64,000 nucleotides of DNA from Dysosmobacter acutus (GTDB taxonomy: Bacteria > Bacillota > Clostridia > Oscillospirales > Oscillospiraceae), in contig NZ_JAHLQN010000001.1 in NCBI RefSeq assembly GCF_018919205.1, forward strand, positions 1,054,001 to 1,118,000, written 5' to 3'. Below the pieces are notes generated by a model, which saw only the letters and a program-made list of their open reading frames with translations, was not told the origin of the DNA and made no database searches. The stretch's first letter is position 1; every line of letters begins with the position of its first letter. Positions 7,750-22,802 of this stretch are shown piece by piece. Made by a program: the position numbers and the translations under genes.

Positions 7750-9195
7750 TCAGCTCCGCTTCCACTTGGCGCCGCCGGGAAGGTCGGTGATCTCAATACC
7801 CTGCTGGTTCAATTCGTCGCGGATGCGGTCGGCCTCCGCAAAGTTCCTGGCCTTTTTCGCCTCAGCCCTCTGCAGCACCAGCGCGTCGATCTCCGGGTCT
7901 CCCTCGCCCTGGATGAGAAAGCCGCCGGCGGCGGACTTGGCGGAGGACTCCTCAGCCCTGCGCTTTTCTGCGGCCTTCTCCAGCAGGCTCAGCCCTAAGA
8001 CCTGGTCGAATTCGCCCAGGAGATGGAGCTTGGTCTCATCATTGGTCTGGCACTTGAGCACGTCGTAGAGGGCGGTGACGGCCAGGGAGGTGTTCAGGTC
8101 GTTGTCCAGGGCGGCCTTGAATTTTTCCCGCGCCGCCCTGGCGGATTCCTCGTCCACGGCGGCGCCGCTGTCTTTCAGGGCGGCGACGCGGCCGATGAGC
8201 TTCCCATAGGCCCCGGCGGCGTTGTCCAAGTTCTCCCAGGAGAACACCAGGGACTTGCGGTAGTGGCTCTGGAGGCAGAACAGCCGGTAGGCCAGGGGAT
8301 CGTAGCCCTTTTCCTCCAGCAGCGACACGGTGAGAAACTCGCCCTTGGATTTGCTCATCTTGCCGGAGGTGGTGTTCAGATGCAGCACATGCATCCAGTA
8401 GTTGCACCACTTGTGGCCCAAATAGGCCTCGGATTGGGCGATTTCATTGGTGTGGTGGGGGAAGGCGTTGTCAATGCCGCCGCAGTGGATATCCAGGTCC
8501 TCGCCAAGGTGCTTCATGGAGATGCCGGAGCACTCGATGTGCCAGCCGGGATAGCCGACGCCCCAGGGGGAGTCCCACTTGAGGGCCTGGTCCTCAAATT
8601 TGGATTGGGTGAACCAGAGGACAAAATCGTTTTTGTTGCGCTTGTTTGTGTCCTCTTCCACACCCTCGCGGACGCCCACGGCCAGATCGTCTGCGTCGTG
8701 GTCGTTGAAGATATAATACTTCTCCAGCCTGGAGGTGTCAAAATACACATTGCCGCCGGCGCGATAGGCATAGCCGGTCTCCAGCAGCCGGGAGATGATC
8801 TTGATATACTCGCCGATGCAGGCTGTGGCGGGCTCCACCACGTCGGGGCGCTTGATGTTTAAGCGGCGGCAGTCCTCGAAAAAGGCGTCGGTGTAAAACT
8901 GGGCGATCTCCATGACGGTCTTGTGTTCCCGCCTGGCGCCCTTGAGCATCTTGTCCTCGCCCGAATCCGCGTCGGAGGTTAGGTGCCCCACGTCGGTGAT
9001 GTTCATCACCCGCTTCACATTGTAGCCCGCATAGCGCAGGTATTTTTCCAGCACATCCTCCATGATATAGGAGCGCAGGTTGCCGATGTGGGCAAAGTGG
9101 TAGACCGTGGGGCCGCAGGTGTACATCTTTACGATGTCCGGGTGGTTGGGGACGAATTCCTCTTTTTTGTGGGAAGCGGAGTTGTACAGATGCAT
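7750..9195 (-). CDS. cysS: Cysteinyl-tRNA synthetase
   Basis: This class I aminoacyl-tRNA synthetase charges tRNA-Cys. The 481-residue protein has the CysS N-terminus with MYTCGPTVY (zinc-ligand Cys), the HIGH-type motif FAHIGNLRS, GWHIECSGI with further zinc ligands, and GKMSKSKGE as the KMSKS loop. The C-terminal helical anticodon region (YDVLKCQ ... ARNFAEADRIRDEL) is complete, so full length is expected. It follows cysE by one base. The pair is controlled by the T-box at about 9.98-10.23 kb, so transcription should rise when tRNA-Cys is uncharged. Confidence 0.97.
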   Translation of the reverse strand: MHLYNSASHKKEEFVPNHPDIVKMYTCGPTVYHFAHIGNLRSYIMEDVLEKYLRYAGYNVKRVMNITDVGHLTSDADSGEDKMLKGARREHKTVMEIAQFYTDAFFEDCRRLNIKRPDVVEPATACIGEYIKIISRLLETGYAYRAGGNVYFDTSRLEKYYIFNDHDADDLAVGVREGVEEDTNKRNKNDFVLWFTQSKFEDQALKWDSPWGVGYPGWHIECSGISMKHLGEDLDIHCGGIDNAFPHHTNEIAQSEAYLGHKWCNYWMHVLHLNTTSGKMSKSKGEFLTVSLLEEKGYDPLAYRLFCLQSHYRKSLVFSWENLDNAAGAYGKLIGRVAALKDSGAAVDEESARAAREKFKAALDNDLNTSLAVTALYDVLKCQTNDETKLHLLGEFDQVLGLSLLEKAAEKRRAEESSAKSAAGGFLIQGEGDPEIDALVLQRAEAKKARNFAEADRIRDELNQQGIEITDLPGGAKWKRS

Positions 9196-9196
9196 A

Positions 9197-9844
9197 TCAG
9201 GCAGTCCTTTCCTTTGAGTTTTTCAGTTCTTGTTCCAGCTCTTCGATACGGGCGGTCAGGGCGCACAGCTCCTGATGCACCGGATTGTCCACATGGATCT
9301 GGTCCACTTCGTCTGTGAAGCGGACGGGTTCACCACGGCCACGGGCGATCTGGGCGGGTACGCCCACTGCGGTGCAGTCCGGCGGCACCTCATCAAGGAC
9401 CACGGCGTTGGCGGCGATGCGGGCGTTGTCGCCCACCTTGAAGGGGCCTAACACCTTGGCGCCGGAGCCGATCATCACATTGTTGCCGATGGTGGGATGG
9501 CGTTTTCCCTTATCCTTTCCCGTGCCGCCCAGGGTTACGCACTGATAGAGCAGCACATCGTCGCCGATTTCCGTGGTCTCGCCGATGACGATGCCCATGC
9601 CATGGTCAATGACAAGGCGGCGGCCGATCCGGGCGCCGGGATGGATTTCAATGCCGGTCTTCTTGCGGCTCCGCTGAGAGACCCAGCGGGCCAGGAAAAA
9701 ACGGCGGCGCACATAGAGATAGTGGGCCAGGCGGTGGTATAAGACGGCTTTTACGCCGGGGTAGAGCAAAAAAATCTCTATCTTGCTCCGGGCCGCGGGG
9801 TCCCGGCGCTGATAAGCGGACAATAATTCATTGAGACGATTCAA
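9197..9844 (-). CDS. cysE: Serine O-acetyltransferase
   Basis: The enzyme acetylates serine with acetyl-CoA, giving O-acetylserine for cysteine synthesis. The 215-residue protein has a helical N-terminal domain (VKAVLYHRLAHYLY) and left-handed beta-helix hexapeptide repeats (IEIHPGARIGRRLVIDHGMGIVIGETTEIG, GGTGKDKGKRHPTIG), with catalytic-region Asp-His in IDHGMG. I favour the TTG at 9844, 8 nt after AAAGGAG; an in-frame TTG at 9865 lacks a good site. It is first in the cysE-cysS operon and lies behind a Cys T-box. Confidence 0.95.
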   Translation of the reverse strand: MNRLNELLSAYQRRDPAARSKIEIFLLYPGVKAVLYHRLAHYLYVRRRFFLARWVSQRSRKKTGIEIHPGARIGRRLVIDHGMGIVIGETTEIGDDVLLYQCVTLGGTGKDKGKRHPTIGNNVMIGSGAKVLGPFKVGDNARIAANAVVLDEVPPDCTAVGVPAQIARGRGEPVRFTDEVDQIHVDNPVHQELCALTARIEELEQELKNSKERTA

Positions 9845-9980
9845 GTTAAGATCTCCTTTATTCAATCAGATGTCGGCGGGATGCGCGGCAACATCGAAGG
9901 AGTGCGAAAAAAGTCATAAGTGCCTCCCTGCCCGGAGGCGGCTGTATCCGCAGGGAAGACAGCTCAGCCTATGCGGGTCA

Positions 9981-10230
9981 AAATAAAAACGCCCCTCATA
10001 CCCGTCAGGGTACAAGAGACGTCGAAAGACGCGGTTCCACTCTTGCATTTTGCTCACGCCGGCCAAACAGCCGGACAGCCCGGTAACGGCGGCTCCGCCG
10101 GGGGCCATTACGCCCCGTGCTCCCGGATGCACTTCACACCCTCCGCCGTAGGCGCGCTTCCAGCCGCTGACGCGCCCTCTCTGCCCTTTGGACGGATGCT
10201 ACTCTTTCCGCTCATCGCACATTTGTACTC
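9981..10230 (-). promoter_or_regulatory. Cys-specific T-box riboswitch
   Basis: Reading leftward, the leader contains the T-box core AGAGTGGAACCGCG (10043-10030). A 14-bp terminator helix follows (10021-10008 with 10003-9990, loop TGAC) and then a T-rich run (9989-9981). An AGAGAGGG GA-type motif lies in Stem I. The specifier region reads GUGAAGUGCAUCC, giving a TGC (Cys) codon followed by A. Uncharged tRNA-Cys would stabilise the antiterminator and switch on cysE-cysS. The core and terminator are clear; the exact Stem I fold needs modelling. Confidence 0.9.
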
Positions 10231-10233
10231 AGT

Positions 10234-10262
10234 ATATTATCAGCCTTTGCGGCGCGTGTCAA
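10234..10262 (-). promoter_or_regulatory. Promoter of the T-box/cysE-cysS transcript
   Basis: On the minus strand TTGACA (10262-10257), 17 bp, TAATAT (10239-10234) form a near-consensus housekeeping promoter. It lies immediately upstream of the T-box leader. Confidence 0.85.
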
Positions 10263-10369
10263 GGGATTTTTCATTCGCCCGCGATGTTGCAAATGCGCCG
10301 GATCATGGTTGCCCCGGGGCGGGCGGTGTGATAAGCTAAGGGTAACTTACAGGAGAAGGGAGCGGTTCC

Positions 10370-10897
10370 ATGATACGAGCGGGAAGAGAGGCAGACATCG
10401 GCCCCATTGAAAAAATCTATCACCGGATTCTGGAGCGGCAGGAGGCCGGACTTGCGTCGGTGGGCTGGATTCGGGGCGTTTACCCCACCGCGCAGACGGC
10501 CCGGGAGGCCCTTGCGGCGGGAGAACTCTTTGTGCTGGAGGAGGACGGAGCCGTGGCCGCCGCCGCGCGGATCAACCAAAGGCAGGTCCCGGAGTATAAA
10601 AATGCCAGATGGCGGTATGCCGACGCGCCGGAGGAGCAGATCATGGTTCTGCACACGCTGGTAGTGGACCCGGAGCGGTCGGGGATGGGGTATGGGACGG
10701 AGTTCGTCCGGTTCTATGAGCGCTATGCCCTCCAGCACAGCTGTCCCTATCTCCGCATGGACACCAACGCGGTGAACGCCGCGGCCCGCAGGCTGTACCG
10801 CGGCCTGGGCTATTGGGAGGCGGACATCGTGCCCTGCGTATTCAACGGCATTCCGGATGTACAGCTTGTGTGTCTGGAAAAGCGGATCGGGCAGTAG
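10370..10897 (+). CDS. GNAT-family N-acetyltransferase
   Basis: This 175-residue acetyltransferase has the GNAT core: the beta4-alpha3 acetyl-CoA region LHTLVVDPERSGMGYGTEFVRFYE (Q/RxxGxG variant RSGMGYG) near residues 96-120, and the motif-B region NAVNAAARRLYRGLGYWE near 127-145. AGGAGAAGGGAG precedes the ATG. The acceptor substrate cannot be read from sequence. It stands alone, convergent with glycerate kinase. Confidence 0.87.
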   Translation: MIRAGREADIGPIEKIYHRILERQEAGLASVGWIRGVYPTAQTAREALAAGELFVLEEDGAVAAAARINQRQVPEYKNARWRYADAPEEQIMVLHTLVVDPERSGMGYGTEFVRFYERYALQHSCPYLRMDTNAVNAAARRLYRGLGYWEADIVPCVFNGIPDVQLVCLEKRIGQ

Positions 10898-10901
10898 AGC
10901 A

Positions 10902-10932
10902 AAGGCCTCCACCGGAAGACGTCGGAGGCCTT
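10902..10932. terminator. Hairpin between convergent genes (weak terminator)
   Basis: A 9-bp stem (10902-10910 with 10924-10932) sits between the convergent GNAT and glycerate kinase genes. It lacks a proper T-run on either strand, so its role as a terminator is uncertain. Confidence 0.4.
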
Positions 10933-10985
10933 CACCGCAAAAGAAAACGTGAACAGTCCCGGCGGAGAGAAAAGGGATCGGAAGA

Positions 10986-12140
10986 TCAGGCGGGGTATTT
11001 CGGGCCGCGGCGCTCCAGCCCGGCAATAAAATGGAGGAGATTCCGGGTGGTGAGACGCAGCCCCTCCTCGCTGTGGGCCATGGCCTCCTCAAGGGCCATG
11101 GGCTGGCGGTGGATGGGGAAGATACCGGTCACCCCTTGGTCATAGGCCTCGTCCACATCGCCGGCCGCGGACCCCACCAGCGCCGCCACCGGCACCCCGG
11201 CTGCCCTGGCCCGCCGGGCCACGCCAAGGACCACCTTGCCCCGCAGACTCTGGCGGTCCAGCCGCCCCTCGCCGGTGATGACCAGGTCCGCCTGCCGGAG
11301 CAGCTCATCAAAATGCACCGCATCCAGAACAGTTTCAATGCCCATCTGCAGGCGGCCCCCAAGGAGGGCCACCGCGCCCGCCCCCATGCCTCCGGCGGCA
11401 CCGCCTCCGGGCAGATGGAGCACATCCACACCCAGATCCCGGCGGACCACCTGTGAAAAATGGAGCAGCCCCGCGTCCAGCCGCTCCGCGATCTCTGGAG
11501 TCGCGCCTTTTTGCGGGCCGAAGACGAAACTTGCCCCGGCGGGGCCGCAGAGCGTGTTGTCGATGTCGCACATGGCCACCACATCCATGGTTCGCAGCCG
11601 GGGAAGGAGGCCGCTGACGTCGATGTGGGTCAGGCGGTGCAGTGTGCCGCCGGTGGGAAGATACTCCTTCCCGGCGGCGTCCAAAAAGCGAACGCCCAAC
11701 GCGGCGGCGGCGCCGCAGCCGCCGTCGTTGGTGGCGCTGCCGCCCAGGGCCAGGATCAGCCGTCCGGCGCCCCGATCCAGGGCCGACGCGATCAGCTCTC
11801 CCACACCAAAGGTGGTGGTCTGGTCCGGGTGAAGGCGTCCGCCTGTCAGGGGAAGCCCCGCGGCCGCGGCCATCTCCACCACGGCGGTGCCGTCCGGCAG
11901 CAGACCATAGAATCCGGTCCGCTCCTCCATGTAGGGCCCGTGGCAGGGCGCTTCCACCCGCCGGCCGCCCAAAGCGGACAAAAAGGCCTCCACACTGCCC
12001 TCGCCGCCGTCGGCCACAGGGATGCTGACCACCCGGGCGTCCGGGACGCAGGAGCGGAGCTCCTCCTCCACCAGACGGCAGATCTGGATGGAAGACAGGG
12101 AGCCTTTGAAGGAATCAGGGACCAGAAGGAACTGTTTCAT
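10986..12140 (-). CDS. Glycerate kinase
   Basis: This glycerate kinase family-1 enzyme phosphorylates D-glycerate with ATP. The 384-residue protein starts MKQFLLVPDSFKGSLSS and contains IPVADGGEGSVEAF, LGGSATNDGGCGAAAALGVRF, LPGGGAAGGMGAG and TGEGRLDRQSLRGK, all family signatures. The ATG at 12140 has GGAGG 6 nt upstream; the open frame extends 76 codons further but without family similarity. Full length. No glycerate-pathway partners are adjacent. Product position (2- or 3-phosphoglycerate) is not resolvable from sequence alone. Confidence 0.95.
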   Translation of the reverse strand: MKQFLLVPDSFKGSLSSIQICRLVEEELRSCVPDARVVSIPVADGGEGSVEAFLSALGGRRVEAPCHGPYMEERTGFYGLLPDGTAVVEMAAAAGLPLTGGRLHPDQTTTFGVGELIASALDRGAGRLILALGGSATNDGGCGAAAALGVRFLDAAGKEYLPTGGTLHRLTHIDVSGLLPRLRTMDVVAMCDIDNTLCGPAGASFVFGPQKGATPEIAERLDAGLLHFSQVVRRDLGVDVLHLPGGGAAGGMGAGAVALLGGRLQMGIETVLDAVHFDELLRQADLVITGEGRLDRQSLRGKVVLGVARRARAAGVPVAALVGSAAGDVDEAYDQGVTGIFPIHRQPMALEEAMAHSEEGLRLTTRNLLHFIAGLERRGPKYPA

Positions 12141-12285
12141 GGCGCGCCTCCTTTCAGGGAAAATCCTGTCTTGATTGTAGCGGCGGGGGAGGGAGCTGTC
12201 AAGCCGCGAAACCGGTTGCAGGGCCGGCGGCGGTATGGTATCATGGAATGCAAAAACAGTTGACAGCTGGAGGGAATTGAAGAAA

Positions 12286-12507
12286 ATGAAAAAATTTGTG
12301 TTTGGCGTGATGCTGGCAGTCATCGGCCTTATGTTCGCCGCCATCTGTTTCGTCCATGCCCTGTGCAACCCCTGGAACTACAATGGAATCGATGGGCTGT
12401 TGGGCTCTTTTCTTGGCACCGATACGCTGATTCCTTTCGTAATTTCCCTGCTGGTGCTGATTGCGGGCGTTGTGATCTGCGGCCGCGAGGCCTATCGCAG
12501 GAAGTAG
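12286..12507 (+). CDS. Small two-helix membrane protein
   Basis: This 73-residue protein has two hydrophobic helices (about 5-25 and 45-65) joined by a polar loop (NPWNYNGIDGLLGS) and a basic C-terminus. I start it at the ATG at 12286; GGAGGG lies 11-12 nt upstream. The function is unknown. The similar small membrane gene 45 bp downstream suggests a two-gene unit. Confidence 0.62.
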   Translation: MKKFVFGVMLAVIGLMFAAICFVHALCNPWNYNGIDGLLGSFLGTDTLIPFVISLLVLIAGVVICGREAYRRK

Positions 12508-12552
12508 GAGCCGCCCAGAGACAACAGACGGACACGGAGTGGAGGGATTTCT

Positions 12553-12762
12553 ATGAATCTGGCGTGCAAGCTTGCGGGTATCCTGTTTGCAATTCTGGCG
12601 GCAGCGCTTCTTCTGCTCTCCGCCTGCATCGCCCTTTTTGGGCGCGGAAGTGGGTTCCTGGATTTGAGCAATGTAGTCGCGCTTGCGGTGTTGGGGAGCG
12701 CGCTTGTCTCCGCCGCACTCTCGCTTGTTGCGTTTTTACTCCTGAAAAAGAAGCCAAAGTGA
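12553..12762 (+). CDS. Small two-helix membrane protein
   Basis: This 69-residue protein is almost entirely two membrane helices (about 5-30 and 40-63) ending in KKKPK, which puts the C-terminus in the cytoplasm by the positive-inside rule. GGAGGG lies about 7 nt before the ATG. No family is recognised. It follows another small membrane gene. Confidence 0.6.
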   Translation: MNLACKLAGILFAILAAALLLLSACIALFGRGSGFLDLSNVVALAVLGSALVSAALSLVAFLLLKKKPK

Positions 12763-12766
12763 CCGA

Positions 12767-12858
12767 TGCGCCGCTCAGCATGCAATGCTGAGCGGCGCAC
12801 TGTTGCTGGCCGGTGATAGACGGCAAAAAGCACCCGCGCCATAGCGCGGGTGCTTTTT
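12767..12858. terminator. Two successive hairpins between convergent units
   Basis: The first is a 14-bp stem (12767-12780 with 12786-12799) without a T-run. The second is a perfect 15-bp stem (12825-12839 with 12844-12858) with A5 and T5 ends, a good bidirectional terminator. They close the small membrane genes and, from the other side, the smsC-smsB operon. Confidence 0.82.
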
Positions 12859-12871
12859 ATGCAATGGAAGC

Positions 12872-13795
12872 TCAGGCCAAAAAACCCTTCAGGATGCAGT
12901 CCTCCGCCTCCTCCTCGGTGAGGCCAAGGGTCTCCAGCTTCAAAAGCTGGTCGCCGGCAATCTTGCCGATGGCCGCCTCGTGAATCAGCTGGGCCTCGGT
13001 GCAGTTGGCGGTGATGGCCGGGATGGAGCGGATTTTGGCGTTCCCCATGATGATGGAGTCGCACTGAACGTGGCCGAAGCACTGGGCGTTGCCCACCATC
13101 CGGGGATAGAAGACCTGGCTGGAGCGGTCCTGGGCCACGGAGCGGGAGATCACCCGGCCCTTGGCATCCTCGCCGTCCAGGACGATCTCCATATCCGATT
13201 CGGCCACTTGGTCGCCGTGGGTCAGCAGCCGCTCGGTGATGACGGCCTCGGCGCCCTTGCCGCAGACGATCTTTGTGTCCCGCTTGGTGGAGTCGATGCC
13301 ACGGATCTGGGTGGTATCCATCCGGATGGAGGCACCCTCCTCCAAATAGACCACGGTCTGGGGGTTCATGATGCGCCCGCCGGTGCCGTCCCCGTCACCG
13401 TAGTGCTTTTCCGTATAGTGCACCCTGGAGTTCTTGCCCACATAGAAGGTGTGAATTCCGTCATGGCGGGAGGTCTCCGCGCCGCAGTTGTGAATTCCGC
13501 AGCCGGCCACAATCTCCACATCACAGTTTTCACCGATGTAGAAGTCGTTGTACACCATCTCCTCAATACCGGGCTTGGTGATGATGACGGGAATGTGGCA
13601 GGTCTCGCCCACGGTGCCGGCCTTGATGCGGATGTCAATGCCGGGCTTGTCCTCCTTGCCGGTGATCTGGATATGCTCGGTGCTCTGCCGGCCGTCGCAG
13701 CCGGAGTCTTTGCGGATGTTGAACGCGCCCACCGGCTTGCCGATCAGATCCGCGATCTTCTCCAGCAGGCTGCGGTCCACCTGGCTCTCCATCAT
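12872..13795 (-). CDS. smsB: SufB/SufD-family Fe-S scaffold (minimal SMS system, SmsB)
   Basis: This 307-residue SufB/SufD-core beta-helix protein assembles iron-sulfur clusters together with its ATPase partner. It has the short N-terminus, GIHNCG and RHDGIHTFYVG segments, the core ERLLTHGDQVAESDMEIVLDG, and a C-terminal FGHVQCDSI ... EAQLIHEAAIGKIAGDQLLKL region typical of the family. The length is shorter than classical SufB, matching the minimal two-gene SMS (SmsC-SmsB) system of anaerobes. Its ATG overlaps the stop of the ATPase gene (ATGA). No sufS, sufU or sufD follows. Confidence 0.92.
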   Translation of the reverse strand: MMESQVDRSLLEKIADLIGKPVGAFNIRKDSGCDGRQSTEHIQITGKEDKPGIDIRIKAGTVGETCHIPVIITKPGIEEMVYNDFYIGENCDVEIVAGCGIHNCGAETSRHDGIHTFYVGKNSRVHYTEKHYGDGDGTGGRIMNPQTVVYLEEGASIRMDTTQIRGIDSTKRDTKIVCGKGAEAVITERLLTHGDQVAESDMEIVLDGEDAKGRVISRSVAQDRSSQVFYPRMVGNAQCFGHVQCDSIIMGNAKIRSIPAITANCTEAQLIHEAAIGKIAGDQLLKLETLGLTEEEAEDCILKGFLA

Positions 13796-14532
13796 CAGCG
13801 CGCACCTTCTTTCGTCAACACCGGGCAGGACCCGATGGTACTGGTCAAAATCTTGGGAAGAATCTCCTGGGCGCTGCCCCGGTGGGAGATGGAGCCATCG
13901 CCCACCACGATGACCTCGTCGGCAAGGGAGATGATCCGCTCCTGATGGGAGATGATGACCATGGTGGCGGTTCCGGCACTGTGAATCTGCTCAAACGTCT
14001 CCGTCAGGCGGGAGAAGCTCCAAAGGTCGATGCCCGCTTCCGGCTCGTCGAAGATCATCAGCTCCGCGTCCCGGGCCAGAATGGTGGCGATTTCAATGCG
14101 CTTGACCTCGCCGCCGGAGAGGGACACATCCACCTCCCGGTCCAGATAGTCGTTGGCGCACAGACCCACCTTGGTCAAAAACTGACAGCAGAGCTCCTTG
14201 GGCAGCTTCTCGTTGCCGGAGGCCAGGGTCAGCAGCTTGCGGACCGTCAGCCCCTTAAACCGGGGCGGCTGCTGAAAGCCGTAGCTGATGCCCAGTCGCG
14301 CCCGCTCGGTAATGCCCAGGGCTGTGATGTCGGTCCCGTTCCAGAGAATCTGGCCGGAGGTGGGCTGTACCAGACCCATGATGACTTTGGCAAGGGTGGT
14401 CTTTCCGCCGCCGTTGGGTCCGGTGAACACCACCAGGCGGTGGTCCTCAATGGTCAGGGAGATGTCTTTTAAAATTCCAAGTTCCCCATCCTGATCGTGG
14501 ACGGAGTAACAGATATGGTTCAGTTCCAGCAT
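13795..14532 (-). CDS. smsC: SufC-like ABC ATPase (SmsC)
   Basis: This 245-residue cytoplasmic ABC ATPase drives Fe-S cluster assembly on the SmsB scaffold. It shows Walker A GPNGGGKTTLAK, SufC-type GISYGFQQPPRFKGLTVRKLL, signature SLSGGEVKRIEIA, Walker B ELMIFDEPEAGIDLWS and a switch histidine in IISHQE. GGAGG precedes the ATG. It is first in a two-gene operon. ATP-binding residues are intact. Confidence 0.94.
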   Translation of the reverse strand: MLELNHICYSVHDQDGELGILKDISLTIEDHRLVVFTGPNGGGKTTLAKVIMGLVQPTSGQILWNGTDITALGITERARLGISYGFQQPPRFKGLTVRKLLTLASGNEKLPKELCCQFLTKVGLCANDYLDREVDVSLSGGEVKRIEIATILARDAELMIFDEPEAGIDLWSFSRLTETFEQIHSAGTATMVIISHQERIISLADEVIVVGDGSISHRGSAQEILPKILTSTIGSCPVLTKEGAR

Positions 14533-14741
14533 ACGCTGACCTCCTTTGTCGCAAACAGGGAAAACCCGCCGGAATCATATTATTTTACCAGATGTGGCCG
14601 GAAAATGCAATTGGCTGCGCCGCATTCGCGGAGTATCTATACAGTATTCTACCAAAAAAGCAAAATTAAACCGGTTGCAGATGCAACAGGAACTAAAATT
14701 CACCCGGTTGCATACAATGGCGGGAAAAGGAGGCGGAATCC

Positions 14742-15320
14742 ATGGATCAATATGATTACCGGCAATACGACCGCATCTGGGAGCGGGTGGCCCCTACCCT
14801 GAACCCCTATCCTGCCGCCCGGACGCAAAACAGCGCCGCCGCGGCGCCCATGACCGTACAAGAGGAGGAGACCCTGCCCGGGGCCCAGCAGGACCCCTGC
14901 TGTATGGGATCGGCGGCGGCGGAGTCGATAGAGGTGCTCAAGGGGTTCATCGAGGAGGAGCTGGCAGACCGGCGGTATTACCTTGCCTTCGCGCGCCAGG
15001 CGCCCAACCCGTCGGCTGCCCGCACACTGCGGGAAATTGCCGCGGATGAGGCGGGCCATGCAAAACGGCTGCTGGCCGTGTACTACCTGATCACCGGGGA
15101 ATGCTTCCGGCCCGCCTTTGGCAGCGAGCGGATCAGCATCGGCCCCTGGTGCGCCGCACTGCGGGGGCGCTACCACGAGGAGGCCTGCGGAGGCTTCAAT
15201 TACATACGGGCGGCGGAGGGAACCACCGATCCCTGCCTGAATAAGCTCCTGACGCAGCTTTCGGAGGATGAATACCGCCACGCGGACAGAATGCTTGCCC
15301 TGTTGGAGCGGGCTCTGTAG
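14742..15320 (+). CDS. Ferritin-like (di-iron four-helix) protein
   Basis: This 192-residue protein has a proline/glutamine-rich N-terminal 60 residues and then a ferritin-like bundle. Likely iron ligands are the Glu in FIEEELADRRYY, Glu-His in DEAGHAKRL, Glu-Glu in RYHEEACGG, and Glu-His in EDEYRHADRM. This is rubrerythrin-like spacing, but there is no rubredoxin domain. A role in peroxide or iron handling is inferred. GGAGG lies 8 nt before the ATG. In the 209-bp divergent region upstream, the 9-mer CCGGTTGCA occurs twice (near 14672 and 14704). Divergence from the Fe-S assembly operon fits an iron theme. Confidence 0.82.
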   Translation: MDQYDYRQYDRIWERVAPTLNPYPAARTQNSAAAAPMTVQEEETLPGAQQDPCCMGSAAAESIEVLKGFIEEELADRRYYLAFARQAPNPSAARTLREIAADEAGHAKRLLAVYYLITGECFRPAFGSERISIGPWCAALRGRYHEEACGGFNYIRAAEGTTDPCLNKLLTQLSEDEYRHADRMLALLERAL

Positions 15321-15329
15321 CTCCGCCAT

Positions 15330-15360
15330 AAAGTCTGTGCCGCCCGGCGGCACAGACTTT
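15330..15360 (+). terminator. Hairpin terminator after ferritin-like gene
   Basis: A perfect 14-bp stem (15330-15343 with 15347-15360) ends in TTT and is followed by GCTCTTTT. It lies 10 bp after the stop codon. Confidence 0.7.
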
Positions 15361-15519
15361 GCTCTTTTCGACAAATAAACAGGGCCTGGAATGGCTATTC
15401 CTTAGAAGAAACGTACATTTACACGAGGAGGCGACCGTGCTAAAATTACTTTAACACTTAAAAGCGTAACGGCGCAAAGTAAAAAAGAAACGGGACTTTA
15501 AAGAGAGAGGGAATCGATC

Positions 15520-16968
15520 ATGAGCCAGATCAAGTTTATGAGTGGGGAGAACATCCCCCTGGAGATGCATAAAGTCCGGATTGTCCAGAAGCTGTACCTG
15601 CCCACTGTGGAGCAGCGCCGGAAAAATATGGAGGCGGCGGGCAACAACACCTTTTTGCTGCAAAATAAAGATGTGTTCATCGACATGCTCACCGACAGCG
15701 GCGTCAACGCCATGAGCGACAACCAGCAATCGGCCATGCTGCAGGCCGACGACGCCTATGCCGGCTCCGCCACCTTCACCCGGCTGGAGAGTAAGCTCCA
15801 TGAGCTCTTCGGCATGGACTACTATCTGCCCACCCACCAGGGCCGGGCGGCGGAAAACATCCTGGCGGAAACCTATGTGAAGCCCGGCACCGTGATTCCC
15901 ATGAACTATCACTTCACCACCACCAAGGCCCACATCACCCGCCTGGGGGGCAGAGTGGAGGAGCTGATCTGCGACGAGGGTCTGGAATCCTTCAACGACT
16001 ATCCCTTCAAGGGCAATTTCAATGTGGACAAGCTCCGCGCGCTCATCGAGTCCGAGGGGGCGGAGAAGATCCCCTTTGTCCGCCTTGAGGCGGGAACCAA
16101 CCTCATCGGAGGCCAGCCCCTGTCTCTGCGGAACATCAAGGACGTGTGCGCCGTGTGCCGGGAGTATGGGATTCTCACGGTGCTGGACGCAAGCCTCCTT
16201 CAGGACAACCTCTATTTTATCAAGCAGCGGGAGGAGGCCTGCAAGGACATGACCATCCGCCAGATCACCCGGGAGATCGCGGATGAGATGGACATCCTCT
16301 ATTTCTCCGCCCGGAAATTGGGCTTTGCCCGGGGCGGCGGCATCTGCATCCGCAGCGAGGCGGAGTGCCTGAAAATGAAAGAGCTGGTCCCCGTGTACGA
16401 GGGGTTTTTGACCTACGGCGGCATGTCCGTCCGGGAGATGGAGGCCATCACCGTGGGCTTGGAGGAGACCATGGACGAGGACGTCATCTCCCAGGGTCCC
16501 CAGTTCATCCGCTATATGGTGGATGAGCTGCACGCGGCGGGCGTGCCGGTCATCACTCCGGCCGGAGGCCTTGGCTGCCACATCGACGTAAAGCAGTTCC
16601 TTCCCCATGTGCCCCAGGAGCAGTACTCCGCCGGAGCCCTGGCGGCGGCGCTGTACATTGCCGGCGGCATCCGGGGCATGGAGCGCGGCACCATGTCCGA
16701 GCAGCGGGAGCCGGACGGGTCCGAGCATCTGGCGGCCATGGAGCTGGTGCGGCTGGCGGTGCCCCGCCGGGTGTACACCCTCTCCCAGGTGAAGTATGTC
16801 ATCGACCGGGTGAAGTGGCTGTATGAAAACCGGGAGATCGTAGGCGGACTGAAGTTCATTGAGGAGCCCGCGGTGCTGCGCTTCTTCTTTGGCCGGCTTG
16901 CACCCGTGTCCGACTGGCAGGAGAAACTGGTGGCCAAGTTCCGCTCCGATTTCGGAGACAGCCTGTAA
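15520..16968 (+). CDS. Tyrosine phenol-lyase-like beta-eliminating lyase (PLP)
   Basis: This PLP enzyme of the tryptophanase/tyrosine phenol-lyase family cleaves an amino acid into pyruvate, ammonia and a side-chain product. It has DDAYAGS, PTHQGRAAENIL, VLDAS (Asp223) and FSARK (Lys266, expected Schiff base). Thr in HFTTTKAH (133-135), Arg389 in MERG and RFFF near the C-terminus match phenol-lyase rather than tryptophanase positions. However, the arginine normally three residues after the Asp is Leu226, and the usual KKD is RKL. Full length (482). It is a single gene flanked by terminators. Family is certain; the substrate is not. Confidence 0.85.
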   Translation: MSQIKFMSGENIPLEMHKVRIVQKLYLPTVEQRRKNMEAAGNNTFLLQNKDVFIDMLTDSGVNAMSDNQQSAMLQADDAYAGSATFTRLESKLHELFGMDYYLPTHQGRAAENILAETYVKPGTVIPMNYHFTTTKAHITRLGGRVEELICDEGLESFNDYPFKGNFNVDKLRALIESEGAEKIPFVRLEAGTNLIGGQPLSLRNIKDVCAVCREYGILTVLDASLLQDNLYFIKQREEACKDMTIRQITREIADEMDILYFSARKLGFARGGGICIRSEAECLKMKELVPVYEGFLTYGGMSVREMEAITVGLEETMDEDVISQGPQFIRYMVDELHAAGVPVITPAGGLGCHIDVKQFLPHVPQEQYSAGALAAALYIAGGIRGMERGTMSEQREPDGSEHLAAMELVRLAVPRRVYTLSQVKYVIDRVKWLYENREIVGGLKFIEEPAVLRFFFGRLAPVSDWQEKLVAKFRSDFGDSL

Positions 16969-17008
16969 AAAAATACCCCCTGCTGAGGCAGCTCAGCAGG
17001 GGGTATTT
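16967..17008. terminator. Bidirectional intrinsic terminator
   Basis: A perfect 17-bp stem (16971-16987 with 16992-17008) with flanking A-rich and TTT ends lies between the convergent lyase and BlaR1-like genes. Confidence 0.85.
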
Positions 17009-17019
17009 GCTGAGTGGCT

Positions 17020-18426
17020 TTACGCCACGTCCATCGCGTCGTAGATGTCCACGTAGGAGGCCACCTGTTCCTCACCCTCGTAAAACCGGAGATCGCGCAG
17101 GTCCACCGTGCCGTCGATCACGATGAGAAACGGGGCGGAGCCCGCGTAATCCGGCAGATCCACCGACTGTTCACCGCCGTCGTAAACCGCCGTCACCCGG
17201 GTGTAGCGCACCTGCCGTACCTCATCGGTGCGGTAGTCCCAGTATCGCTCATTTACACTGCCGAAGGCGGCTGTCACGCCGTTTCCATGGAGGACGGCGC
17301 CATGAAATCCCGGAGCCCTGGCGGGCTCGCAGTCATAGCGGGCGGCAATGCCGTATTCCATATAGGATTTATCAAGGATATAGGCCGTGTACATAGTGAC
17401 ATAGCGTGTGTCCTCGGGATTTCGCGATTCGGTGAGCAGCACCACGCTGTCGCCGCACACATCGGCCGCCACCACCGCATCCTCCTCCCCCTGATTGACC
17501 AGCGCTTTTGCGGCGTCGGCGATCTGCCGCTGCTCCGCCATCCGAATGGGATTGGTGATCAGCACAGCGATTATGACAGCGACCGCCGCCGCCGCCGCGG
17601 GAAAGACGATCCAAAAGGAAGGGGTTCGATAGCGCATCACATGTTTGATCCGTCCCTTTACATCTCCCTCGCCAAAGGCCAGGGGGACGGCGGCAAAGGA
17701 TGACCCGGCGGCCAGTTTCAGCAAGGAGGCGGAGTAGTCGGCCCGGATGTCCACGCCCGCCCGTTGCAGCACGGCTTCGTCACAGGACATCTCCATGTCC
17801 CGTTCCGACAGGGTAAAGGCCAGCCAGACCAGGGGATTGAACCAGTGAAGGGTCAGGGCAAGAAAGGCAAGGAGTTTCACGATGTGATCGTGGCGGCGGA
17901 TATGGGTCTGCTCGTGGAGAATGATGTAAGAGCGCTCCTGTTCCGAAAGAGCGGAAGGCAGGTAGATGACAGGCCGGAACAGCCCCACCACAAAGGCGGA
18001 ATGGATGTGATCGGCCGAGTAGAGATTATCCCGCACGTGCACGGAACCTGTAAGAGTGCGCCGCAGCCGCCAAAGGGAGAGGGCGCTGCAGATCAGCAGT
18101 GCGCTTACGCCAAGCGCCCAAATCAACGAAAAGAAAGAGGGCTCCGTCTCTGCCGCCGGAGAGGATTGGGGCTCCTGTTCCGTGACCGGAGGCTCGGGAT
18201 AGAGCTCATGGACGGCAACAGGCATGTCCACCGCGTTGAACAGGGAAATGGGGGAGGAAAAAGACACCGGGCACAGCAGCCGAAATAAAACCACCGCCCA
18301 CAGGAGATGGGAAAACAGCTTTGGGGCCCGCTTCAGCAGCAGCCTTGATAGCGCCACGGCAAGAATCACGGGGCTTGCCGCAAGGCTCATGTCTAAAATC
18401 CGGGAGAACACTGCATCCATCCACAT
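17020..18426 (-). CDS. BlaR1/MecR1-like M56 membrane metallopeptidase
   Basis: This 468-residue sensor protease is predicted to cleave the BlaI-type repressor encoded just upstream. It has several N-terminal membrane helices and the M56 zinc motif LHEQTHIRRHDH (HExxH), followed by LHWFNPLVW and ERDMEMSCDEAVL with the third zinc-ligand Glu. One more membrane helix lies near 255-275. The extracytoplasmic C-terminus is not a penicillin-binding domain (no SxxK/KTG seen), so the signal is probably not a beta-lactam. I start it at the ATG at 18426, 3 nt after a GGGGGTGA site that also contains the upstream stop. Confidence 0.9.
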   Translation of the reverse strand: MWMDAVFSRILDMSLAASPVILAVALSRLLLKRAPKLFSHLLWAVVLFRLLCPVSFSSPISLFNAVDMPVAVHELYPEPPVTEQEPQSSPAAETEPSFFSLIWALGVSALLICSALSLWRLRRTLTGSVHVRDNLYSADHIHSAFVVGLFRPVIYLPSALSEQERSYIILHEQTHIRRHDHIVKLLAFLALTLHWFNPLVWLAFTLSERDMEMSCDEAVLQRAGVDIRADYSASLLKLAAGSSFAAVPLAFGEGDVKGRIKHVMRYRTPSFWIVFPAAAAAVAVIIAVLITNPIRMAEQRQIADAAKALVNQGEEDAVVAADVCGDSVVLLTESRNPEDTRYVTMYTAYILDKSYMEYGIAARYDCEPARAPGFHGAVLHGNGVTAAFGSVNERYWDYRTDEVRQVRYTRVTAVYDGGEQSVDLPDYAGSAPFLIVIDGTVDLRDLRFYEGEEQVASYVDIYDAMDVA

Positions 18427-18430
18427 GGTG

Positions 18431-18790
18431 TCACCCCCTGTGTTCATCGATGAACCTCTGAAGCTCATCAATTTCCTGTTTTGACAGCTTTTTGCGCATG
18501 GAAAAGGCTGTCAGGAACCTGGGAAGGGAGCCATGAAAGGCTTCATCCACAAATTCCTCGCTTTGCCGGGCGTAAAACTCCTGCCTTGAGAGGAGGGATG
18601 TTACTGCTCCTCCGCTGTTTTGAAAGATACCGCGTTCGCAAAGGCGCCGCAAAATGGTGTACGTCGTTGATTTTTTCCACTCCAGTTCCCGCTCACACAG
18701 CCTGACCAACTCTCCGGAGGAGAGAGGCTCATTGTCCCAAATCAACTCTGCAAACCTGGTCTCCACGGCGCCCAGCCGATATTCCGTCAT
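18431..18790 (-). CDS. BlaI/MecI-family transcriptional repressor
   Basis: This 119-residue winged-helix repressor has the family N-terminus (LGAVETRFAELIWDNEPLSSGELV), the recognition helix region WKKSTTYTILRRLCERGIF and a dimerisation tail. It lies 4 bp upstream of the BlaR1-like gene, the normal two-gene arrangement. Two TAC-N5-GTA palindromes sit in its promoter. It most likely represses its own operon until the partner protease cleaves it. Confidence 0.93.
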   Translation of the reverse strand: MTEYRLGAVETRFAELIWDNEPLSSGELVRLCERELEWKKSTTYTILRRLCERGIFQNSGGAVTSLLSRQEFYARQSEEFVDEAFHGSLPRFLTAFSMRKKLSKQEIDELQRFIDEHRG

Positions 18791-18808
18791 ATGCAGCCTC
18801 CTTTCGGT

Positions 18809-18866
18809 CTACTAACTGTAGCCCACGCCATGAGTTTACTATGTGTAAACCAAAAAGTCAAGCAAA
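18809..18866 (-). promoter_or_regulatory. BlaI-type operators and promoter
   Basis: Two inverted repeats share the pattern TAC-N5-GTA: CTAC-TAACT-GTAG (18809-18821) and GTTTAC-TATGT-GTAAAC (18834-18850), with centres 27 bp apart. A leftward promoter (TTGACT, 17 bp, TAAACT) runs through the second repeat. Binding of the adjacent BlaI-type repressor here would block its own operon. The assignment is by position and symmetry. Confidence 0.7.
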
Positions 18867-18900
18867 TTTTGCCTTGAGGTGGAATTCCTTTCCAAAACGC

Positions 18901-18929
18901 TTGCACATTGGAAAAAAAGCGGCTATACT
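18901..18929 (+). promoter_or_regulatory. Promoter of the HD-domain gene
   Basis: TTGCAC (18901-18906), 17 bp, TATACT (18924-18929), 35 bp upstream of the HD-domain start codon. It is close to consensus and divergent from the BlaI promoter. Confidence 0.75.
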
Positions 18930-18964
18930 GACAAAAAATCCATACAAAGGAGAATCCTCTTATC

Positions 18965-19555
18965 ATGAAAGAATGCATTTCACGCCAGGCGGCCCTTGCG
19001 CTGCTGAGAAAGTATAACGCCGAGCCCTTCCACATCCAGCACGCGCTGACGGTGGAGGGCGTAATGCGCTGGTTCGCCGGGGACCTGGGCTTCGGTGAGG
19101 ACGCGGAGTTCTGGGCCACGGTGGGCCTTTTGCACGATGTGGATTTTGAGAAGTGGCCGGAGGAGCACTGCGTCAAGGCGCCGGAATTGCTGGAGGAGGC
19201 GGGCTGCTCCAGGGAGTTTATCCATGCGGTGTGCAGTCACGGCTACGGCCTTTGCAGCGAGGTTCGACCGGAGGAGGAGATGGAGAAGGTGCTCTTTGCC
19301 TCCGACGAGCTGACCGGGCTCATCGGCGCCGCTGCCCGGATGCGGCCCTCCAAGAGCTGTTCGGATATGGAGCTGTCCAGCCTGAAGAAGAAGTTCAAGG
19401 ATAAGAAGTTTGCCGCGGGCTGTTCCCGGGATGTGATCCGCCAGGGGGCGGAGTTGCTGGGCTGGGAGCTGGACACGTTGATGGAGAAGACTCTGGAGGC
19501 CATGCGCTCCTGCGAGGAGGCCGTCAGCCGGGAAATGGAGTCCTTGGGACTGTAA
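18965..19555 (+). CDS. HD-domain hydrolase
   Basis: This 196-residue protein has an HD phosphohydrolase core: His in FHIQHALTVEGVM (about 22-26), the HD pair in GLLHDVDFEKWPEEH (about 57-58), His in IHAVCSHGYG and Asp in FASDELTGLI. These are the ligands expected for a divalent-metal site. Close relatives are annotated only as HDIG/HD proteins; the substrate is not predictable. AAAGGAG precedes the ATG. Monocistronic, with its own promoter and terminator. Confidence 0.87.
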   Translation: MKECISRQAALALLRKYNAEPFHIQHALTVEGVMRWFAGDLGFGEDAEFWATVGLLHDVDFEKWPEEHCVKAPELLEEAGCSREFIHAVCSHGYGLCSEVRPEEEMEKVLFASDELTGLIGAAARMRPSKSCSDMELSSLKKKFKDKKFAAGCSRDVIRQGAELLGWELDTLMEKTLEAMRSCEEAVSREMESLGL

Positions 19556-19559
19556 AAAA

Positions 19560-19613
19560 GCCGCCGGAACAGGCGGCAAAAAACGCGCGGCGCTATCAGG
19601 CGCCGCGCGTTTT
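19560..19613. terminator. Tandem hairpins, bidirectional terminator
   Basis: A 6-bp GCCGCC/GGCGGC hairpin (19560-19577) followed by A6 is next to a perfect 14-bp stem (19580-19593 with 19600-19613) with A4/T4 ends. Together they end the HD gene and the convergent FakA-like gene. Confidence 0.8.
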
Positions 19614-19617
19614 CATG

Positions 19618-21273
19618 TTATTCCATCGAGATGATGTAATAATAGACGGGCTGACCGCCGGAGAGGACGGAGATTTCCGCCTCGGGGCAGGCCTTCTGGA
19701 AGAGGTCCGCGGCCACGCTGGCGTCCTCCTCGCTGACGTCCTCTCCGAAAAAGAGGGAGACAAAGGAGGCTTCCCGGCTGGCGGCGTCCTCCGCTAACTT
19801 TCCAAGCAGGGCGGTGATGTCCCTGTCGGTGCCGAAAAGCTTCCCCTCCTCAAGGGCAAGGTAGTCGCCCTCGCTGATGGCAAAGCCGTCGAAATCGGAG
19901 TTCCGGGCGGCATAGGTGATCTGGGCCGTGGTGACGGCGCCGATGGCATCGGCCATGGCGTCTGCAATCTGCTGAGCGTCCTCCGCGTCAAAATCCACGT
20001 TCATCATGGCGGTGATGCCCTGAGGCACGGTCTTGGTGGGGATGACCACCACCTCCTTGGAGGTGAGGCCGGCGCACTGCTGGGCGGCCATAATGATGTT
20101 TCCGTTGTTGGGCAGGACAAACACGGTCCTGGCGTTGATGCGCTCGATCTCCTTGAGGATGCTTTCCGTGGAGGGGTTCATGGTCTGCCCGCCGGAGACC
20201 ACGCCGTCCGCGCCCAGGTCCTTGAACAGAGCGGCCAGGCCGTCGCCGGCGCACACGGCCAGAAAGCCAAACTCCTTGGGGGGCTCAGCGGGGGCGGAGG
20301 GTTCTTCCGCCTCCAGATCGTCCACGCTCTGGGTCTTCCGGCCCGCGGCCATGTCCTCGTACTGGGTGCGCATATTCTCAATTTTCGCTAACTCCAGCGT
20401 ACCGTATTTCTGGGACTCGGTAAGGGCGGCGCCGGGGATGTCGGTGTGGACGTGGACCTTGAAGGCGTCGTCGTCCTCGCCGATGACCAAACTGTCGCCG
20501 ATGCCGCTCAGATAGGACCGCAGCGGCTCGATGGACTTGCCGGGGATCCTGCGGACGATGAACACGGTGTCAAAGGTAAAGGTGATCTCCTCATCCGTGA
20601 GGGCGGCAAAGTCGGCCTTTTCCTGGGGATGGGATTCCTCGTTTATCTCCGGCAGTGGTTCCCCGCGCATGGCGGCCAGCATTCCTTCCAGCACGATCAG
20701 ATAGCCCTTTCCGCCGGCGTCCACAACACCGGCCTTCTTCAGTACCGGGTTCATCTCAATGGTCTGGTCCAGAGTGGCGTAGCCCTCGGCAATGGCCTCC
20801 TCCAGAACCTTCTCAATGTCCTGGGTCTCGGCGGCTACTTCACAGGCCCGCTTTGCGGCCAGGCGGGAGACGGTGAGCACGGTGCCCTCGGCGGGCTTCA
20901 TCACCGCCTTGTAGGCGGAGGCCACGCCCTCCTGCATGGCGTTTGCAAAGGCGGCGCTGTCGGCGGACTCCATGCCCTTGAGGGACTTGGACAGTCCCCG
21001 GAAGAGGAGGGACAAAATGACGCCGGAGTTGCCCCGGGCGCCCCGCAGCAGCGCGGAGGCGGTGATGGAGGCGGCCTGCTCCAGGCTCTGGGGATCGGAT
21101 TTCTTCAGCTCCGCCACAGCGGTGTTGATGGTCATGCTCATGTTGGTGCCGGTGTCTCCGTCGGGCACGGGAAAGACGTTTAGGTCGTTGATGGCCTGCT
21201 TTTGGATGGTGATGGCCGCAGCGCCGTGGAGCACCATCTGCTTGAAAAGAGCGCCGGTAAGCTGTTCGTTCAT
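19618..21273 (-). CDS. DAK2/FakA-like kinase (YloV family)
   Basis: This 551-residue protein has an N-terminal DhaL/DAK2 nucleotide-binding domain (about 1-200; PVPDGDTGTNMSMT gives the Mg-ATP-binding Asp residues, plus ARGNSGVILSLLFRG) and a C-terminal region (about 300-551) of the FakA/DegV-associated type (NNGNIIMAAQQC). FakA phosphorylates fatty acids bound to FakB; that activity is inferred here from family. The ATG at 21273 has GGAGG 12 nt upstream; a longer frame exists but its extra residues would overlap the Asp23 gene. Downstream of the Asp23 gene, the conserved yloU-yloV order. Confidence 0.92.
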   Translation of the reverse strand: MNEQLTGALFKQMVLHGAAAITIQKQAINDLNVFPVPDGDTGTNMSMTINTAVAELKKSDPQSLEQAASITASALLRGARGNSGVILSLLFRGLSKSLKGMESADSAAFANAMQEGVASAYKAVMKPAEGTVLTVSRLAAKRACEVAAETQDIEKVLEEAIAEGYATLDQTIEMNPVLKKAGVVDAGGKGYLIVLEGMLAAMRGEPLPEINEESHPQEKADFAALTDEEITFTFDTVFIVRRIPGKSIEPLRSYLSGIGDSLVIGEDDDAFKVHVHTDIPGAALTESQKYGTLELAKIENMRTQYEDMAAGRKTQSVDDLEAEEPSAPAEPPKEFGFLAVCAGDGLAALFKDLGADGVVSGGQTMNPSTESILKEIERINARTVFVLPNNGNIIMAAQQCAGLTSKEVVVIPTKTVPQGITAMMNVDFDAEDAQQIADAMADAIGAVTTAQITYAARNSDFDGFAISEGDYLALEEGKLFGTDRDITALLGKLAEDAASREASFVSLFFGEDVSEEDASVAADLFQKACPEAEISVLSGGQPVYYYIISME

Positions 21274-21290
21274 GTTTTTAAGCTGCCTCC

Positions 21291-21641
21291 TCACATGGTC
21301 ATGGAATCGACGCAGACATCCACTGAGCGCACGGTGACGCCGGTGTTGTGGTTGACTACGTACCGCACCTCGCTCATAATCGAGCGGCATACGGCTGTCA
21401 GATTCACGCCGTTTTCCACGATGATGTGGAGTTCAATATCAATGGAGTCGTCCTCGTTATAGGTGACCTTGACGCCCTTGCTCATTGCCTCGCGGCGGAG
21501 CAGATGGACAAGCCCGTCGGTCATGGAGCGGAACGCCATGCCCTTCACGCCAAAGCAGTTGGTGGCAGCCACGCCGGCAATGTTGGAAAACACTGCGCTG
21601 CTGACAGAAACTTCGCCGCGTTCAGACTGAAATTTTATCAT
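21291..21641 (-). CDS. Asp23/Gls24 family protein (YloU-like)
   Basis: This 116-residue protein of the alkaline-shock Asp23/Gls24 family has the sequence pattern GEVSVSSAVFSNIAGVAATNCFGVKGM, then NEDDSIDIELHIIVENGVNL and VRSVDVCVDSM. I start it at the ATG at 21641, near an AAAGGAC site. It lies 17 bp upstream of the FakA-like gene and is surely cotranscribed with it. The family is cell-envelope or stress related; exact function is unclear. Confidence 0.92.
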   Translation of the reverse strand: MIKFQSERGEVSVSSAVFSNIAGVAATNCFGVKGMAFRSMTDGLVHLLRREAMSKGVKVTYNEDDSIDIELHIIVENGVNLTAVCRSIMSEVRYVVNHNTGVTVRSVDVCVDSMTM

Positions 21642-21905
21642 AAAAAGCGTCCTTTCTTTCCGGATAGTCAGGAAAAATCCCTTATGTCCCCGCGCTCTGA
21701 ACGACGTGCCTTTGAGCCGGGTCACAGTTTCGGTAGCTTATTATATACGATTTTTTCAGGAAGTACAAGCAAAAAAAGAGCCGGCGCGGGTTTTACGGCA
21801 TTGTTTTTGGCATTCCAATATTGAAATCTTTCCGAATCTGACTTAAAATAGAACAGTATATGATTGTGGTCTGCGGGAGACAGGGCTGGTCTGGGGAGTG
21901 ATACG

Positions 21906-22802
21906 ATGAAAAAAGGTCCGCTTTGTGTGCTGGCCTGTTATGTGATTTGGGGACTGCTTCCCGGCTACTGGAAGCTGATGTCCTCGCTGGACTCCTTTTA
22001 TATTCTGGCCACCCGGATTCTCTGGAGCCTGATTTTTGTGGGGCTGATTCTGCTTGCCTCCGGGCAGATGGACCGTGTGCGCGCGGCGCTCCGGGATCGC
22101 GGGGAACTCCTGCGTCTCAGCCTGGCCGGGGTGCTTATCTGCGTCAACTGGGGCGCCTTCATCTGGGCGGTGAACAGCGGTCATATCCTGGACTCCAGCC
22201 TGGCATACTATATGAATCCCATCCTCACTATTTTAATCGGGACCTTTGTGTTTCATGAAAAGCTGACCAGGCTCCAGTGGGTGGCGGTGGGGATCACCCT
22301 TGCGGGGATTGTGGCGGCTGTGGCGCGCTTTGGCCAGATCCCCTGGCTGGCGCTGGTCATCGGTGGGGCGTTCGCCCTGTACGGCGCGGTGAAGAAGGGC
22401 TGCCGCGTGGACGCGGGCACGTCCCTTTTCCTTGAGACGCTGGTGCTGGCCCCTGCCGCGCTGGCATTTGTGCTCTGGTCGGAGTGGAACGGGACCGGCG
22501 CCGTGGGCAATATGGGGCCGGGTGGTTTTGCGCTGCTGGCCTCCACGGGAATTGCCACCAGTGTGCCGCTGCTCTTTTACGCCAAGGGCATCGTACTGAC
22601 GCCCTACACCACGGCCGGGATTTTGATGTACGCCAATCCCACGCTGCAATTCATCGTGGGCGCCCTCTTTTTCCATGAGCGGTTTACCACCACCTACGCC
22701 ATTCTCTTCGGCTTCGTCTGGACGGGGCTGATCTTTTACGTGGCCAGCGACCTGCTGGCCCACCGCGCACAGCGGAAGAATCAACAGTTGGAGGAACAAT
22801 AA
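21906..22802 (+). CDS. rarD: EamA-family permease RarD
   Basis: This 298-residue drug/metabolite-transporter protein has ten predicted membrane helices and RarD hallmarks: YVIWGLLPGYWKL, ATRILWSLIFV, NWGAFIWAVNSGHILDSSLAYYMNPI, and a second half with KGIVLTPYTTAGILMYANPTLQF. The ATG at 21906 lies behind GGGGAGTG; an in-frame upstream ATG at 21864 has no site. The transported substrate is not known. The stop is directly followed by rsmD, so they form one operon. Confidence 0.92.
   Translation: MKKGPLCVLACYVIWGLLPGYWKLMSSLDSFYILATRILWSLIFVGLILLASGQMDRVRAALRDRGELLRLSLAGVLICVNWGAFIWAVNSGHILDSSLAYYMNPILTILIGTFVFHEKLTRLQWVAVGITLAGIVAAVARFGQIPWLALVIGGAFALYGAVKKGCRVDAGTSLFLETLVLAPAALAFVLWSEWNGTGAVGNMGPGGFALLASTGIATSVPLLFYAKGIVLTPYTTAGILMYANPTLQFIVGALFFHERFTTTYAILFGFVWTGLIFYVASDLLAHRAQRKNQQLEEQ

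Follow-up and report, generated by a model that had tools for sequence, protein, structure and literature searches.

A sister subfamily of tyrosine phenol-lyase with an altered PLP surround and a putative built-in cation

What reaction is catalysed by an enzyme that combines the substrate-binding residues of tyrosine phenol-lyase (TPL) with an altered surround of its PLP cofactor? This question is raised by a gene at positions 15520 to 16968 of the window, the 64,000-nucleotide stretch of Dysosmobacter acutus DNA analysed here. The gene begins with ATG and encodes a 482-amino acid PLP lyase, as established from the list of open reading frames, family profiles and a fold model. It lies on the plus strand, as do the codons, the hairpin and the promoter-like site given below.

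Family profiles place the protein broadly. The lyase passes the cut-offs of Pfam model Beta_elim_lyase PF01212 (168.8 bits; cut-off 27) and of the NCBIfam 'tryptophanase' subfamily model PRK13238 (604.4 bits; cut-off 285), the latter being a broad model that is no test of indole-lyase activity. It falls below the cut-offs of the equivalog models for TPL (TIGR02618, 449.3 versus 720.7 bits) and for TnaA (TIGR02617, 364.8 versus 825.8; NF053783, 400.8 versus 750). Among solved structures, TPLs come closest in sequence (E values of 9e-115 to 5e-110), sharing 40-41% identity with the lyase and lying outside its clade, and tryptophanases come next. The residues that define the TPL/tryptophanase family (fold type I, 4.1.99.x) are all found in the protein, namely the Schiff-base lysine (K266), the tyrosine general acid (Y80), the aspartate at the PLP nitrogen (D223), the asparagine at O3' (N194) and the arginine that binds the carboxylate (R411).

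Residue equivalences were taken from an alignment with C. freundii TPL. The catalytic residues T58, S60, Y80, R109, N194, D223, S263, K266 and R411 are unchanged from TPL, where their counterparts are T49, S51, Y71, R100, N185, D214, S254, K257 and R404, respectively. Among these, Y80 is encoded at 15757 to 15759 and R411, the alpha-carboxylate residue, at 16750 to 16752. The accessible part of a study of P. vulgaris tryptophan indole-lyase (PMC11301627) lists Thr50, Ser52, Tyr72, Asn194, Asp223, Ser263, Lys266 and Arg414 as catalytic residues, and the alignment gives each of these an identical counterpart in the 482-amino acid lyase. According to the same source, T124 and R381 of TPL bind the hydroxyl group of tyrosine. 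Their counterparts are T133 (15916 to 15918), which contacts the phenol hydroxyl in TPL and is Asp in tryptophanases, and R389 (16684 to 16686), a determinant of phenol specificity. Together with M387 and F455 (TPL M379 and F448; F448/F449 correspond to F455/F456), these TPL-type substrate residues occur in 52 of 52 clade sequences. The phenol-lyase markers named in the initial annotation (the Thr of FTTT, Arg389 of MERG, and RFF) are all placed by this alignment.

Identification as a tryptophanase, which the name of the NCBIfam subfamily implies, would be in keeping with the PRK13238 score and with the annotation of a clade copy from Rhodobacter, but the residues argue otherwise. In the P. 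vulgaris enzyme, the indole ring nitrogen is contacted by Asp133 and His458, which also contact each other (PMC11301627, accessible part), whereas these two positions are Thr and Phe in 52/52 clade sequences. The TnaA equivalog scores are far below their cut-offs, and the phylogenetic tree groups the clade with TPLs. On sequence grounds, the name 'tryptophanase' is contradicted for the 482-amino acid lyase, and we regard indole-lyase activity as very improbable.

Other positions distinguish the clade from its relatives. To define them, 52 clade sequences were compared with 31 TPL and tryptophanase sequences, identical sequences being used once. The clade rows omit one fragment (L017), an 804-residue open frame (L071) and unfetched hits that include fragments in G170 and G318, and the 31 outside rows omit eight of ten long tryptophanases described below. 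L226 (16195 to 16197) replaces TPL Arg217 in 52/52 clade rows, and Arg is present in 31/31 outside rows. Arg217, by the numbering of PMC3870968, is listed in the part of that paper available to us among the carboxylate-contact residues of TPL, and for the indole-lyase the accessible text of PMC11301627 has the carboxylate held by Thr50, Asn194 and Arg414 and does not contain the term Arg226. The segment R265-K266-L267 (16312 to 16320) aligns with K256-K257-D258 of TPL, K266 being the Schiff-base lysine. R265 is found in 52/52 clade rows and 0/31 outside rows, and the position of D258 is hydrophobic or Ser in the clade. Thus, alignment confirmed three details of the initial annotation: Leu226 in place of Arg, RKL in place of KKD, and retention of the catalytic Lys266.

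The monovalent-cation site is probably also rebuilt in the clade. D78 (15751 to 15753) replaces TPL Glu69 (52/52 clade rows, 0/31 outside), and R271 (16330 to 16332) aligns with TPL Asn262, with one residue deleted directly after it. At position 271, 46 of the 52 clade rows have Arg and six have Lys. The tree implies three switches between the two, so the charge persists even as the residue varies. In TPL, Glu69 and Asn262 serve as ligands of the cation, and mutants of the C. freundii enzyme at Glu69 and Lys256 have reportedly been studied for monovalent-cation activation. Both this rebuilding and the clade-wide fixation of the changes extend the residue list of the initial annotation.

Row comparison reveals several additional differences. 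R188 and E190 (16081 to 16089; TPL C179 and A181) are clade-specific and present in 52/52 rows each, as is Y261 in place of TPL T252, while F296 at the position of TPL M288 is a tryptophanase-like residue. The segment L351 to H354 (16570 to 16581) replaces TPL His343 to Phe346, with Leu for H343 in 49/52 clade rows and His for F346 in 52/52; the His343 Ala mutant of TPL is said to have been studied for its kinetic effects. R188, E190, S225, Y261, G352, H354, W433 and W466 are all present in 52/52 clade rows, whereas no more than 10% of the outside rows share them. A clade-specific C-terminal extension spans approximately residues 463-482 (16906 to 16965; row comparison and fold model), within which the model places a helix at 466-478. 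Another five clade sequences, read from among 11 other clade genomes found in the window's order, match the clade pattern wherever positions were compared.

A maximum-likelihood tree of 83 rows, midpoint-rooted, unites the 52 clade rows with a support of 100/100 and joins them through a 100/99 branch to 14 classical TPLs, whose own branch has a support of 99/96. The tryptophanases fall outside the clade and the TPLs, and the 482-amino acid lyase is a sister to the classical TPL branch rather than a member of it. The stem of the clade is long, at 1.15 changes per column. These findings make it nearly certain that the clade is a distinct subfamily sister to TPL. They also provide the phylogeny that the initial annotation had called for, and its view of a TPL-like enzyme with an altered PLP surround is borne out by the tree and the substrate residues. 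However, the lyase is not a single odd case, as the changes are clade-wide (52/52). The subfamily has apparently been neither described nor assayed, as a search of open-licence papers yielded no description of it and no assayed member. Likewise, among the PDB matches and the open literature searched we found no homologue with the same residues that is a proven ordinary lyase, which was the observation named as refuting the earlier view.

An ordinary K+-activated TPL whose changed residues reflect neutral drift would account for the intact catalytic and phenol-binding residues and for the shared fold. However, L226, R265, D78, R188, E190 and Y261 are present in 52/52 sequences that are just 51-73% identical to the query, and drift would not hold them constant, which makes this explanation improbable. 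Their fixation throughout a widespread clade means that the changes are old and have been kept by selection. The clade is under purifying selection, with dN/dS values of 0.03-0.09 in six of eight close pairs, the other two having no usable dS. This result also bears on a non-catalytic or decaying relative, which might be suspected from the change of several second-shell residues that are constant elsewhere in the family. Such a relative is scarcely credible given the low dN/dS in the six computable pairs, the retention of the Schiff-base lysine and the direct catalytic residues, and the presence of zero internal stops in the best matches listed for the 45 genomes of the window's phylum that carry the clade form.

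The fold is that of the family as a whole. An AlphaFold2 model of the lyase (mean pLDDT 92.7) has a TPL as its best match (TM 0.92/0.97, Z 54.4, rmsd 1.4 over 454 residues). Z scores are 46-54 against TPL entries and 41-52.5 against ordinary tryptophanases, and since the best tryptophanase value of 52.5 exceeds those of several TPL entries, the fold alone cannot separate the two.

The spread of the clade across several phyla is patchy. Relatives occur on named contigs from an Oscillospiraceae MAG, Bacteroidota, an Akkermansiaceae MAG, a Balneolales MAG and Tangfeifania, and a Rhodobacter sp. plasmid carries a copy with 67.6% identity to the query. In the window's phylum, the clade form was found in 45/398 genomes, a count that does not include the window's own: 38 at 65-73% identity, five at 51-54% and two as fragments. 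In its order, 12 of 197 genomes carry the form, including the window's own, and one of them is in its family. Among 36 other genomes of the same genus, many of them incomplete, none has it. Recent horizontal transfer into the window's genome may be considered, but given 12/197 genomes in the order, patchy loss would fit equally well. Two Bacteroidota MAGs that bear different names, Candidatus Cacconaster (L010, 5992-7440) and a horse-faeces Bacteroidales (L011, 2590-4038), carry near-identical clade genes with matching flanking genes.

Some carriers encode additional family members. Of the 45 clade genomes, 14 have at least one further match at E <= 1e-60, some of these matches being fragments. 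Among seven second copies that were read, five are classical TPLs by their residues (G279, G147, G202, G453 and G120) and two are tryptophanases (G091 and G134). Where a classical TPL is present, as in these five cases, the clade enzyme is no stand-in for a missing TPL. As a separate observation, 10/36 genomes of the window's own genus (among loci L020-L045) carry instead a long tryptophanase of ~550 amino acids that is 27-30% identical to the query. These proteins have the size of Butyricicoccus 8sl7, with Asn at the position of TPL M288 and Ser at those of M379 and T49.

Coexistence with classical TPL is also compatible with a different substrate. A beta-lyase of the same family might act on another hydroxyaryl-alanine or on an S-linked cysteine derivative, its altered PLP surround reflecting a new specificity. 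Consistent with this are the long stem, the loss of R217 and H343, the gain of R188, E190, Y261, H354 and the C-terminal extension, the additional TPL in the five checked genomes, and a thiocysteine lyase SH domain (9cen) whose fold can serve C-S substrates. Against it, the four TPL-type substrate residues in 52/52 sequences are hard to explain unless a phenol-like group is bound. We consider such an enzyme possible but on balance doubtful.

Gene neighbourhoods were compared across 50 loci, including the window, with proteins clustered by similarity, and 27 distinct flanking proteins were scanned (20 with Pfam, 10 with NCBIfam, three in both). Neighbours were taken as the longest non-overlapping open reading frames, a procedure that yields wrong frames in the GC-rich Rhodobacter locus and parts of the window and can miss weak linkage. 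No recurring partner gene was found among the 50 loci. Within the 51-54% identity branch, a TrpX-like ABC substrate-binding protein lies downstream in 2/5 loci (226-231 bits, below the cut-off of 390). In L117 and L118, the clade gene is followed by the TrpX-like substrate-binding protein, a permease and an ATPase, and the two loci share an open reading frame of 324-328 amino acids, whose L117 copy has no Pfam or NCBIfam match. Six loci from two families (L092, L095, L102, L104, L106 and L110) have a histidine kinase and a protein of 225-240 amino acids, presumably its response regulator, near the clade gene; five of the six carry a DUF4342 protein, identified as such in L092 only. In L098 and L114, the clade PLP enzyme has as neighbours subunits similar to those of a putative vitamin B6 ABC transporter, with scores below cut-off.

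In the window, a rubrerythrin-like gene (14742-15320) lies 5' of the lyase gene, and between the two is a terminator-like 15-pair hairpin (15329 to 15361; five such sites in the whole stretch versus a mean of 2.4 in shuffles). A promoter-like TTTACA-17-TAAAAT, with TG ahead of the second hexamer, is located at 15418 to 15446, 73 bp 5' of the lyase ATG, and is weak evidence because one such site was found versus a mean of 0.7 in shuffles. Given these two elements, the lyase gene is probably transcribed alone, as a single-gene transcript. Other neighbours are a SufB/SufC-like pair and a BlaI/BlaR1-like pair, the latter comprising a BlaI-like repressor and a BlaR1-like M56 peptidase on the minus strand at 17020-18790, convergent with the lyase gene. 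None of the neighbours found beside the gene in the window points to tyrosine or phenol or has an evident link to aromatic amino acids, and an Rfam scan of 9000-22000 returned zero RNA elements. An antisense open reading frame at 15451-16728 (425 amino acids) was taken to be a mirror of the lyase coding frame. An EamA-family transporter gene lies at 21864-22802, 5 kb from the lyase gene. On the Rhodobacter plasmid, the clade gene is 0.6 kb away from a gene annotated as EamA-family RarD (L047, 8392-9357); this resemblance is probably a coincidence.

We hypothesize that the enzyme has phenol-lyase activity with a K+-free site, a tentative reading to which we assign a probability of about 0.4. 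The data show the subfamily, its residues, its place in the tree, its fold and its purifying selection, and from these we infer substrate, catalysis and K+ independence. Because the phenol-binding residues are kept, a p-hydroxyphenyl substrate is favoured. The protein would act as an active fold-type-I PLP beta-eliminating lyase that follows the TPL route. It would take a phenol-type (p-hydroxyphenyl) leaving group off tyrosine or a closely related analogue, and the products would be a phenol, pyruvate and ammonia. The predicted order of steps is formation of the K266 aldimine, removal of the alpha proton, formation of a quinonoid, Y80-assisted elimination and release of aminoacrylate. It is in the second shell that the clade departs from TPL, part of the change being centred on the cation site. 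In place of the K+ of TPL, the enzyme would use a positive side chain of its own, that of R271 (Arg or Lys throughout the clade), which would pair with D78. R265, R188, E190, Y261, L226 and H354 may re-form the network around PLP and its phosphate. The predicted outcome is activity with little or no requirement for K+ or NH4+.

A precedent for a built-in cation is provided by pyruvate kinase. However, all the fixed changes fall on one stem and so represent one joint event rather than independent proof of a coupled site, which weakens the case for coupling. In addition, K+ replacement leaves the loss of Arg217 unexplained, so a changed substrate stays a live option; the loss of Arg217 and His343 could indicate a different substrate or a slow enzyme. 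Also counting against the hypothesis are the lack of a neighbour shared across the clade and the tryptophanase-like Phe at TPL position 288. A broader proposal, which we consider rather unlikely, is that the clade represents a widespread third functional class beside TPL and tryptophanase, concealed by the name 'tryptophanase'. Such a class would be K+-free, carry its own cation (R271/K271 with D78) and use a re-formed PLP network to cleave a hydroxyaryl amino acid that differs from the classical substrate, or to do so under different conditions.

Since uremic toxins derive from phenol and indole, the distinction between TPL and tryptophanase bears on how gut metagenomes are read. The Rhodobacter copy is annotated as 'tryptophanase', and the profile match of the query carries the same name, although the sequence lacks the indole-binding pair. 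Names of this kind would lead to false predictions of indole production in the carriers, and phenol production may be missed. The clade also constitutes a natural experiment on how an enzyme may lose its dependence on K+, as the positions of TPL Glu69, Lys256 and Asn262 have all changed on one branch.

Among known systems, TPL (EC 4.1.99.2; C. freundii, P. ananatis and E. herbicola) is the sister group and has the same fold, catalytic residues and T124, M379, R381 and F448. It shares about 40% identity with the lyase, whose clade differs from it by E69D, R217L, K256R, N262R/K plus the deletion, M288F, H343L, F346H, the altered D258 and the C-terminal extension. TnaA (EC 4.1.99.1) shares with the 482-amino acid lyase the fold, the catalytic residues and Phe at TPL position 288, but identity to solved examples is about 35-37%, and the lyase lacks the indole-binding Asp/His and lies outside the tryptophanase part of the tree. 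The long (~550 amino acids) gut tryptophanases such as Butyricicoccus 8sl7 belong to the same superfamily, and some members of the window's genus carry this form. They differ in their lower identity (about 27-30%) and extra length, and they keep R217, KKD, E69, N262 and the Asp/His pair. The thiocysteine lyase SH domain of polyketide synthases (9cen) is a distant fold relative (Z 36, 22% identity). Embedded SH-type domains are described in the available part of PMC3870968 as being without counterparts of TPL Tyr71 and Arg381, both of which are present in the 482-amino acid lyase.
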